Assembly (NCBI GenBank): GCA_014378485.1 | Contig: JACMNO010000002.1 | Coordinates: forward strand, 124,001 to 188,000 | Reading direction: 5' to 3' | DNA from: Bacteroidia bacterium | GTDB taxonomy: Bacteria; Bacteroidota; Bacteroidia; B-17B0; Aurantibacillaceae | Length of the DNA stretch: 64,000 bases | Part shown: piece by piece, positions 39,950 to 47,922 of the stretch | Layout of the letters: each line of letters begins with the position of its first letter | Position numbering within the stretch: the first letter of the stretch is position 1 | Translations under genes and position numbers: made by a program | The notes under the pieces: generated by a model | What the model saw: the letters and a program-made list of their open reading frames with translations, nothing else | Told to the model about the DNA's origin: nothing | Databases searched by the model: none

Positions 39950-41314
39950 CTATTCTTTTAAAACTTTTAAGGTTTGACTGAAACTACCATTGTAAGCTTT
40001 AAGGAAATAAATTCCATTTGATAATTCAGAAATATTGATTTCTTTTAAATTTGCACTTGCATCGAATTTTGGTTCATTTATGGATTTTACTAATTGGCCG
40101 GTAACATCAATAATCTCAATTTTAAGTTTTGAATCGTATGCTTGATTAGTTGTCAAGGTAAATACACCATTTCCCGGATTGGGATAAATCGTCATTTCAT
40201 CTCCATTGCTCATCTCAATAAGACCTGTAACAGTGCAATTAGCGCTGTAGCTTGCAGTTAAATCTTTTTGATTAGGCCAATGCGCACTCATATATGCGGC
40301 ACTATCTACTTGTATACAGGTGAGGTGAGGGTTATTAATTGTATTAATATAGGTAAGATTGGCATTATTTCCGTTTTTTACATTCAAACTGGTTAATTGA
40401 TTGTACATACACCACAAAAACTCAAGAGTTGTATTGGCGGAAACATCTAAACCTGTTAATTGATTTTCATAACAATACAAAGTAATAAGAGCCGTATTCG
40501 CAGACACATTCAAAGCAGTTAATTGATTTTTGCAGCAATTAAGATAATTAAGAACTGTATTTGTGGCCAAATTTAAAGTACTTAATTGATTTTTGTAACA
40601 GTGCAATGATTTAAGAGCCGTGTTTGCAGACACATCCAGATTCGTTAATTGATTGAAGCCACAGTTCAAATTAGTTAGAGCGGAATTAGCAGATACATCC
40701 AAACTCGTTAAATTATTTTCGTAACAAACCAATGCTTCCAGAGCGATTGCTCCTGAAAGATTCAAGTTTGTCAATTGATTGTAAGCACAGTCTAATATAA
40801 CAAGAGCAGTATTAGAGGAAACATCCAGGCTTGTTAAAATGTTGTTCCCACATAGTAAAACAGCAAGATCGGTATTTGATGTAATATTCAAATTTATTAA
40901 TCCGGTATAAGCACAGTCCAAGCTAACAAGAGCAGTATTAAAGGAAACGTCCAAGCTATTTATTCCATAATTGTTGCTACACTTCAAGTCTTTAAGAGCG
41001 ATATTGGCAGACACATTCAAGGCATGCAAACTATTGAAGCAACAGCTTAAATATGAAAGCGAAATAAACGATTCTATTCCTGTTAAATCCGAAATGTTCT
41101 TGCCATTTACATTAATTGTACCCGAAAATGCAGCTGCTTCCGAAACCTGTATTTCGGTATCAGAATTGGTATTGATAGAAGGGTTGCTTACCAAAGTAGC
41201 TTTAAAATTAGCATCAGGAATGTTTACATTTTGAGCTTTTGCAATTCCACCTATTGCGGGCCACCAACCAATAAATGCAAATAAGATCGTGTATAGTGTA
41301 ATTATATTTTTCAT
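39950..41314 (-). CDS. Secreted leucine-rich repeat protein with T9SS domain
   Basis: A 454-residue exported protein. A signal peptide (to about residue 27) is followed by a short region (VNIPDANFKATLVSNPSIN), then about eleven tandem 21-residue leucine-rich repeats (residues about 85-330) of the form LxxLxCxxNQLTxLDVSxNTA. A conserved cysteine follows the second leucine strand. The C-terminal 75 residues are a T9SS sorting domain (IYPNPGNGVFTLTTN ... QTLKVLKE). It is probably a surface adhesin or ligand-binding protein. Because repeats are near identical in DNA, unit number may vary between strains. Confidence 0.88.
   Translation of the reverse strand: MKNIITLYTILFAFIGWWPAIGGIAKAQNVNIPDANFKATLVSNPSINTNSDTEIQVSEAAAFSGTINVNGKNISDLTGIESFISLSYLSCCFNSLHALNVSANIALKDLKCSNNYGINSLDVSFNTALVSLDCAYTGLINLNITSNTDLAVLLCGNNILTSLDVSSNTALVILDCAYNQLTNLNLSGAIALEALVCYENNLTSLDVSANSALTNLNCGFNQLTNLDVSANTALKSLHCYKNQLSTLNLATNTVLNYLNCCKNQLTALNVSANTALITLYCYENQLTGLDVSANTTLEFLWCMYNQLTSLNVKNGNNANLTYINTINNPHLTCIQVDSAAYMSAHWPNQKDLTASYSANCTVTGLIEMSNGDEMTIYPNPGNGVFTLTTNQAYDSKLKIEIIDVTGQLVKSINEPKFDASANLKEINISELSNGIYFLKAYNGSFSQTLKVLKE
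40340..41060 (-). repeat. 63-bp coding tandem repeats (LRR array)
   Basis: About eleven in-frame units of 63 bp encode the 21-residue leucine-rich repeats of the T9SS LRR protein; the segments for TNLDVSANTAL-like text recur with few changes. Confidence 0.7.
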
Positions 41315-47147: not shown

Positions 47148-47196
47148 AACAACCTGCGATAACGAATTACAATTACTTCGATCGATGATGCACGCC

Positions 47197-47336
47197 GTCA
47201 TTTTGAGGATCACGTTATTGCGCGAGACGAAACAATCTGCCCCGTCATTGCGAGGATCACGCCAATGCGTGAGACAAAGCAATCTCATGCAGTACATAAA
47301 GAAACGGGTTTGATATCGCTTCGTGCCTCGTGATGA
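47197..47336. repeat. CGTCATTGCGAGG-type intergenic repeats, two direct and one inverted
   Basis: Two side-by-side ~45-bp units start CGTCATT at 47197 and 47243 (each then GAGGATCACG ... GCGNGAGAC ... CAATCT). A third, inverted, short unit is at 47310-47336 (CTTCGTGCCTCGTGATGA). This resembles the widespread CGTCATTGCGAGG repeat family of bacteria. Confidence 0.65.
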
Positions 47337-47380
47337 AGAACACATCAATGTGAAAAACCAGCCTCATGCAATTATACATA

Positions 47381-47710
47381 TCCACACATGGAAGCTGGCT
47401 TATTCATCAGTGGAAGTAACTATATCCAACGATGGCCATCAAACTTTCCATTCATGGATATCACTAGTTCCATTTAGAGACTTAGCCATATCCGCGAATA
47501 GAGCTTAAAAACACCATTGATAGAGTTAAGCAAGTCCACGCATGTTACTATCTATAACCAGCTATGGTATTCAGTATCTCCACAAATGAAATCAGGTATA
47601 TCCGTAGATGGAGTTTGGAATACCTATGTGTGGATTTGGGCATACCCTGGCGTGGAGTTGACGATAACCACGTGAGGAGTTATGCATCTCCATTCATGGA
47701 CGTGGTCATG
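47381..47710. repeat. Diverged tandem array, exact 22-bp period, 15 units
   Basis: Fifteen consecutive 22-bp units start at 47381, 47403, 47425 and so on to 47689, with no insertion or deletion. Consensus: TCCA, three variable bases, ATGGA, GTT, four variable bases, ATA. Cytosines at positions 2 and 3 are kept in 14 of 15 units and G11 in 13; positions 5-7 and 16-19 are almost random. The core TCCA-N3-(A)TGGA is a dyad. It does not fit coding (22 is not a multiple of 3, stops in all frames) or CRISPR. Possible leftovers extend to 47722. 47723-47922 holds no gene. Confidence 0.85.
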
Positions 47711-47922
47711 TCAATTGTTAAAATAATACCGTAGCACAAAAAAACAACCACCACTTACCAAATCATTCCTACCAGTTATGGGCCGGTTACACCAAGTTAC
47801 AAAGTTAAACCGATATTAACATTTTTTAGTGCTTGTTAAAAGCGCTTTGTGGCACAGTGATTGGAAACCTGTTCCTAAATAATTCATCAACTTAAAAACT
47901 CATTAACTCAATATCTAATAAT

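Follow-up and report, generated by a model that had tools for sequence, protein, structure and literature searches.

What keeps fifteen DNA units in perfect 22-bp phase when the units are only about half identical, and how are they related to the gene that follows them? The question is raised by a stretch of 64,000 nucleotides from a Bacteroidia bacterium, here called the window, in which the first-pass annotation had described such an array upstream of an orphan gene (Table 1). Selection on phase with free sequence, or else a mechanism that makes variable units, had been proposed as the cause.

Table 1. Positions of the array, its partner gene and the elements between them in the window
Feature	Position	Strand	Remark
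Array of 15 imperfect palindromes, 22-bp phase, core AT..CCA...ATGGA..T	47381..47710	.	
TTGTTAAAAT, directly after the gene-proximal array end	47715..47724	+	
Two CCA[CG]TTA elements in a 21-bp step, 99 and 78 bp ahead of the TGGCAC element	47751..47778	+	
Inverted repeat TTAAC-N14-GTTAA, 34 bp ahead of the TGGCAC element	47816..47839	+	in 9/13 loci
Sigma54-like -24/-12 element TGGCAC-N5-TTGG	47850..47864	+	
Partner gene, 231 aa	47923..48618	+	without Pfam, NCBIfam, PHROG or PADLOC family over threshold

Read in a register that starts at 47376 with 22-bp steps, units 1-15 occupy 47376-47705, the same array as in Table 1 in another register, and TCCATGCATGGA, built from the most frequent letters, gives the centre of the unit. 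Each unit matches the 11-position core at 8-11 positions in register and at five or fewer at shifts of 1-3 bp, and the flanking units (two before, three after) score six or fewer in register. The described fifteen units in one 22-bp phase, free of indels over 330 bp, were borne out, as was the identity of about one half between units (0.52, 0.53, 0.48, 0.47 and 0.51 at lags of 22, 44, 66, 88 and 110). The proposed unit motif stands in its core; its GTT part is weak (G in 5/15 units, T in 8/15, T in 13/15). In eleven columns 11 or more of the 15 letters agree, next to 11 freer columns, and the variance of column conservation is 10.1, compared with 3.2 expected under star-like neutral decay. This uneven conservation is the signature of maintained sites and not of a fading minisatellite, since none of 5000 simulations of even decay reached a variance as high. 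A neutral minisatellite, with even decay across columns, indels and no link to a gene, does not fit, on these grounds and on the gene link described below. No other 21/22-bp array was detected in the 64-kb window at the cut-off used, and Tandem Repeats Finder at its default score did not report this one. Two further repeats of other kinds were seen in the window: a REP-like intergenic element directly before the array (47195-47285; 44-bp repeat, two copies 47 bp apart, 82% identical) and a 63-bp repeat at 40455-40654 (3.2 copies, 69% matches).

A profile from 24 homologues of the partner gene yielded 92 deduplicated genes in the loci examined, with 21 loci from named Bacteroidetes bins. Upstream regions were scored for periodicity at every period from 9 to 35 with a cut-off of 0.42, the largest score of 82 Markov resamples being 0.409; 10/92 loci with less than 450 bp upstream were left out. 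The cut-off was exceeded in 72 of the 82 scored loci, with the peak at 21 in 62, at 22 in nine and at 14 in one, and a 21- or 22-bp array accordingly precedes 71/82 homologues with enough upstream DNA. Downstream regions passed in 5/83 cases. Among full-length homologues, 60/65 passed upstream; the five failing genes comprise two with weak 21-bp peaks (0.414), one with a clear 43-bp period, one doubtful case and one without a period. In other parts of the phylum, 10/15 loci with very weak homologues carry a 21-bp array upstream, and two of the remaining five have one downstream. Two loci of one genome (L165 and L161, genome G588) lack an upstream array and carry a strong 21-bp array downstream (0.86, 0.89). 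In the reciprocal direction, 464 kb (464,000 bases) of the window's own genome contained 19 periodic rows, only two of them with a period of 22/44 bp, and each of these stands before one of the genome's two family members; one 21-bp and one 42-bp row resemble coiled-coil coding by eye. Outside the upstream regions, 515,890 bases of the loci held 17 periodic stretches, seven of period 21 and one of period 42. The gene-array link is real and broad, extending over many Bacteroidota genomes. Irregular spacing, or arrays unconnected with any gene, had been named as signs of a simple decaying repeat; the arrays found are regular and stand before homologues of the 47923 gene.

The gene itself is no orphan. 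It belongs to a multi-copy family with up to 14 match rows in one genome, and homologues were found in 15/100 relatives, 27/295 genomes from the class and 7/395 from the phylum, three draws that overlap and each include the own genome. The protein is predicted to consist of a helix hairpin, a proline-rich linker, two short helices and a C-terminal fibronectin type III fold. All 50 fold rows shown lie within residues 131-231 and are mostly fibronectin type III, the helical half lying outside them; no DNA-binding domain was recognised in the domain libraries or in these rows. The pI of the family is near neutral (median 6.5, n=67), the best PDB match by sequence has an E-value of 0.051, and the window protein matched nothing in the plasmid or phage collections, nor did one distant relative in each of them. 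Three within-genome paralogue pairs (L117/L119, L130/L131, L132/L133) have identical or near-identical protein parts with differing N-terminal stretches or arrays, a pattern that looks like gene conversion. The module escapes annotation because its genes are hypothetical and some of the arrays have diverged beyond what repeat finders detect.

The first-pass annotation described no palindromes, and here its picture of the unit is amended. The unit profile of the window array has dyad symmetry (r 0.71, p 0.003), and so have, at p<0.05, 40 of the 65 arrays (out of 71) for which a boundary script located at least five units; the mirror-symmetry control gave 3/65. Column-permutation and mirror controls carry the weight here, because the choice of the dyad and its test share data. 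Static curvature, calculated with wedge angles, was rejected: arrays do not exceed their column-permuted selves (z 0.2) and exceed full shuffles (z 1.7) as any periodic DNA would.

The reading we prefer, which we judge to have an even chance of being right, is that the array acts in cis as a row of dimer sites in helical phase, placed before its gene and belonging to it. Array and gene would form one heritable two-part module. The array would be a double-stranded DNA platform whose palindromic units would each bind a dimeric protein; with a step of 21 or 22 bp, two helix turns, as many as some 20 dimers could sit on the same side of the helix and bind next to each other. Spacing would be conserved while the sequence of the sites drifts and is homogenised within each array. 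Linkage, period, palindromes, inheritance along the gene tree and the lack of covariation are observed; we infer protein binding, the dimers and control of the adjoining gene, on which the array most likely acts in cis. The gene product may itself be the reader, because the period follows its tree.

The most concrete version of this reading applies to the window's clade, where the array would lie upstream of a sigma54-like promoter with its own 21-bp-spaced sites and exert enhancer-like or silencing control. The exact element TGGCAC-N5-TTG, which resembles a sigma54 -24/-12 promoter, occurs between array and gene in 13/82 loci upstream (all nine 22-bp loci and four others) and in 0/83 downstream. 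Its -12 part is TTGG or TTGA, not TTGC, in 12 of the 13 loci; the own genome contains rpoN, and a further TGGCAC-N5-TTGG site stands ahead of another gene (L149). Pairs or triples of CCA[CG]TT[AG] at 21-bp spacing accompany the element in 10/13 loci, mostly at 99 and 78 or at 78 and 57 bp before it, and one locus without the element (L073) has a pair as well. TGTTAA lies 127-148 bp before the element in eight of the nine 22-bp loci. Two further features were noticed by eye in the leaders. Between the TGGCAC element and the gene, some 70 bases (TCTTGC..GTAGCAG.GCAAAA..TTAGCAAGCG..TTCACGAAAG..GTTTT), whose matching ends could pair, recur in L062, L043, L067, L076 and, less clearly, L056, and are possibly a conserved RNA element. 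The leaders of L057, L059 and L060 share a possible short ORF of about 30-40 codons (M.LWNRLFK...).

Several observations weigh against the dimer-site platform. The gene product contains no recognised DNA-binding domain and the family pI is near neutral; 25/65 arrays have no significant dyad; predicted curvature does not go beyond that from periodicity; and the exact sigma54-like element is absent upstream outside the 13 loci. To these are added the position of the 21-bp arrays, 32/56 of which stop no more than 135 bp ahead of the predicted gene start, where they might be transcribed, and the low divergence of a downstream flank in one strain pair, described below. Proteins 96% identical with unrelated motifs, also described below, further imply that the product recognises no constant sequence of bases, and that a many-copy genome would need many readers if another protein reads the arrays.

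The first alternative, which we regard as rather unlikely, is a harmless satellite carried with the gene. Palindromes would favour slippage and unequal exchange, which homogenise the units and keep their length, and since whole units are exchanged the period would be passed on. Many arrays contain higher-order repeats of 2-4 units and are thus homogenised by whole-unit exchange. Units are also more alike in the middle of the array (mean 0.683 over 51 arrays) than at the ends (0.637 and 0.655), and motif turnover between close paralogues as well as a single change from 21 to 22 bp, which could be simple inheritance, fit a satellite. The presence of an array before 60/65 full-length and 10/15 distant genes argues against it, as does the absence of a further 22-bp array in the 464 kb of the own genome. 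The window array, moreover, has no higher-order structure and so looks old, yet it shows no indel and very uneven columns, unlike neutral decay.

Two near-strain comparisons bear on the same point and on the proposed mechanism that makes variable units. The first pair differs at 3/283 positions in the array, 19/735 in the gene, 66/881 in the upstream flank and 18/1453 in the downstream flank; the second at 0/310, 0/744, 1/1158 and 97/1210, respectively. Since the downstream flank of the first pair is as little diverged as its array, in line with a satellite, selection on the array cannot be read from the strain comparisons by themselves. Neither comparison contained unit gain, unit loss or an indel. 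In the quarter of the arrays next to the gene, units are slightly less similar than in the far quarter (0.637 vs 0.655, p 0.03); CRISPR-like growth was rejected because there is no gain at the leader end and this slight difference has the opposite direction. A mechanism making variable units thus found no support in polarity or in the two strain pairs. In the second pair, L052 and L120, the upstream flank, array, leader and gene together differ at 1/2256 positions, against 97 in the 1210 bases that follow; the break is sharp and falls near the end of the gene.

The other part of the original proposal, selection on phase with free sequence, is supported by the behaviour of period and motif across loci, with 21 or 22 bp in 71/82. 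The array motif differs between loci, and the exact motif TCCANNNATGGA, offered as a search pattern for such arrays, is not general. Mean motif correlation is 0.30-0.31 for proteins less than 40% identical and 0.62 for eight pairs above 80%; some syntenic orthologues keep the motif (L057/L060, r 0.74, p 0.005). In two within-genome pairs, proteins 96% identical have unrelated motifs (L132/L133, r 0.35, both loci cut by contig ends, which truncate several loci; L067/L076, r 0.30). The period follows the gene. In a tree of 59 genes (full length with an array score above 0.40, plus L073), a single branch with support 99/93 separates the nine 22-bp arrays from the rest, and in the midpoint-rooted drawing they are nested among 21-bp arrays. 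The 22-bp label requires one change on the tree, compared with a mean of 8.6 after shuffling, and 0/500 shuffles were as clustered; the array period has changed about once in this sample. Genomes G074 and G078 combine 22-bp arrays with a 21-bp peak before another copy, peaks that are weak (0.414, under the cut-off). Because of the tree and these mixed periods, we link the period to the gene lineage rather than to the host. Either the protein sets the ruler or the arrays are simply inherited with the genes; the data fit either.

A gene product that binds its own array and forms a partition-like or filament-like nucleoprotein body is the second alternative, and an unlikely one. The period would then be that of a protein lattice, shifted once from 21 to 22 bp by a change of the protein. 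One array per gene copy is the rule, and the anatomy is like that of F-plasmid sopC, with one locus (L050/L073) having a 43-bp period. The period follows the gene tree, and a host-wide factor would not set the period given the mixed periods of G074 and G078, weak as their 21-bp peaks are. Against this body stand the absence of a known DNA-binding fold in the fold rows for residues 131-231, the neutral pI, and the absence of an ATPase or other recurring partner in the flanks. The motif, moreover, is not linked to protein sequence, and its reading by the gene product found no support. A bolder reading, which we consider doubtful, makes spacing and not sequence the property by which a family of proteins widespread in Bacteroidota reads or builds the arrays: the protein would set a ruler of 21 or 22 bp, each locus would have its own drifting palindrome, and one change in the protein lineage would have moved the ruler by 1 bp for all later arrays; if true, this would be a DNA-organising system with helical phase as its recognition code.

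The third alternative, an improbable one, is that the array is transcribed and forms tandem hairpins in a 5' leader RNA with a regulatory role or subject to processing. Besides the dyads, the short distance of the 32/56 21-bp arrays to the gene start speaks for it, and a primary-sigma promoter scan found the promoter-like TANNTTTG not far upstream of a few arrays. The tests of pairing speak otherwise. In 44 arrays with dyad r of at least 0.5, pairing at the dyad columns was 1074, compared with 529-632 at slid positions (cell numbers differ somewhat), and within-unit covariation of the halves was absent (1074 observed, 1097 expected, z -1.5; slid controls -2.4 to 1.0). Half-sites therefore vary independently, as protein half-sites do. 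Mismatches showed no strand bias in the 65 arrays (G.T 247 vs A.C 235) or in the covariation set (G.T 250 and A.C 354, with 237 and 339 predicted from column make-up), RNA folding energy did not differ between strands (p 0.24), and no Rfam family passed its gathering score, the one match, at E 0.38, being far below it. Some arrays are nearly unstructured (L117, -0.022 kcal/mol per base), and each of the nine 22-bp loci has a promoter-like element on the gene side of its array. A structured RNA leader with compensatory stem changes was rejected on the covariation result, and the RNA hairpin array as the main reading on mismatches, folding strand and covariation together. Half-sites that would be read independently on double-stranded DNA fit these results better than what RNA hairpins or a cruciform need.

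Coding of a heptad-repeat peptide, for which 21 is a multiple of 3 and open frames are in small excess in 21-bp arrays (2.02 vs 1.42), and a CRISPR-like spacer store are both very improbable, as an open frame exists in 0/9 22-bp arrays and is missing in 8/56 21-bp arrays, and neither leader-end unit gain nor unrelated spacers between constant repeats were seen.

The genomic surroundings of 83 loci (flanks mostly 1.5-5 kb) contain two neighbour clusters present in at least three loci, one in 23 loci, resembling common surface proteins by eye, and one, an ORF family, in 4. ATPase, ParA-type NTPase, centromere-binding protein or cas genes did not recur as neighbours in these flanks. The four-locus family lies about 450-930 bp before the gene, upstream of the array, in L047, L082, L085 and L122, and by eye resembles a small regulator with a helix-turn-helix end. 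In L061, 77-bp steps with about 47 bp constant and about 30 bp variable run from about 1065 bp before the gene towards it, which looks like a CRISPR array beside a family member. The methyltransferase gene before the window array has matches below E 1e-50 in 17/20 genomes of the genus, the own genome included. A search of 10 regions for an empty site did not find the partner gene or the window's downstream proteins (an S41 peptidase and two aconitase pieces); gene order after the methyltransferase gene differed in the four regions inspected, so that no insertion boundary could be drawn.

Among known systems, five come closest. Enhancers of sigma54 are alike in having phased sites upstream of a TGGCAC-N5-TTG element. 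The nine 22-bp loci have this element and the own genome has rpoN; the -12 part mostly departs from TTGC. The arrays differ from enhancers in having about 15 sites instead of two or three, an exact element in 13/82 loci only and a locus-specific motif. CRISPR arrays are likewise regular, have a partner gene and vary between loci. Unlike them, the arrays here have no constant repeat with unrelated spacers, no leader-end polarity and no cas-like recurring neighbour, and a CRISPR array was rejected on all three.

Iterons of plasmid origins lie near a gene as helically phased direct repeats of roughly 20-22 bp. The arrays here differ: no Rep protein is recognised in the partner, the units are palindromes and relatives do not share a motif. 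An iteron-type origin was rejected: the gene beside the repeats is no recognised Rep initiator, having no Pfam, NCBIfam or PHROG match over threshold and a fibronectin type III C-terminus, and instead of near-identical repeats there are window units about 50% identical and a motif that differs between loci; the units of some other arrays are near-identical (e.g. L096, L116).

The parS heptad arrays of pSM19035, as described in PMC9499535, are contiguous short sites overlapping promoters with one Omega dimer per site. They differ in their 7-bp non-palindromic units, fixed consensus, ribbon-helix-helix reader and plasmid location. F-plasmid sopC consists of 12 units of 43 bp; within each unit, a dimer binds a 16-bp inverted repeat (PMC9178275). 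In this, sopC/parS_F (type Ia partition) resembles the arrays here in its tandem units with inverted repeats and a spacing near whole helix turns, and tandem sites each with an inverted repeat are found in the window array and in 40/65 arrays. Unlike sopC/parS_F, the arrays here are on genome contigs upstream of a single gene, have a unit of mostly 21-22 bp and no ParA or ParB partner seen, and change in sequence between loci; a plasmid centromere of the parS/sopC type was rejected because the flanks of the 83 loci lack a recurring ParA-type NTPase with a centromere-binding protein.

The module matched nothing in the libraries searched, including viral, phage and plasmid collections, and was not recognised among the PubMed Central matches listed (titles and abstract starts). 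We rate the two-part module as undescribed and new as an architecture. A family without a library match carries an array before nearly every full-length copy examined, and distant families of the phylum do so too, which points to an undescribed regulatory or DNA-organising module that is directly testable. Its period is inherited with the gene and its sequence is not, a rare natural case in which selection on phase is seemingly separate from selection on sequence. By analogy, the module may work like the F-plasmid centromere and the iterons while being a member of neither.
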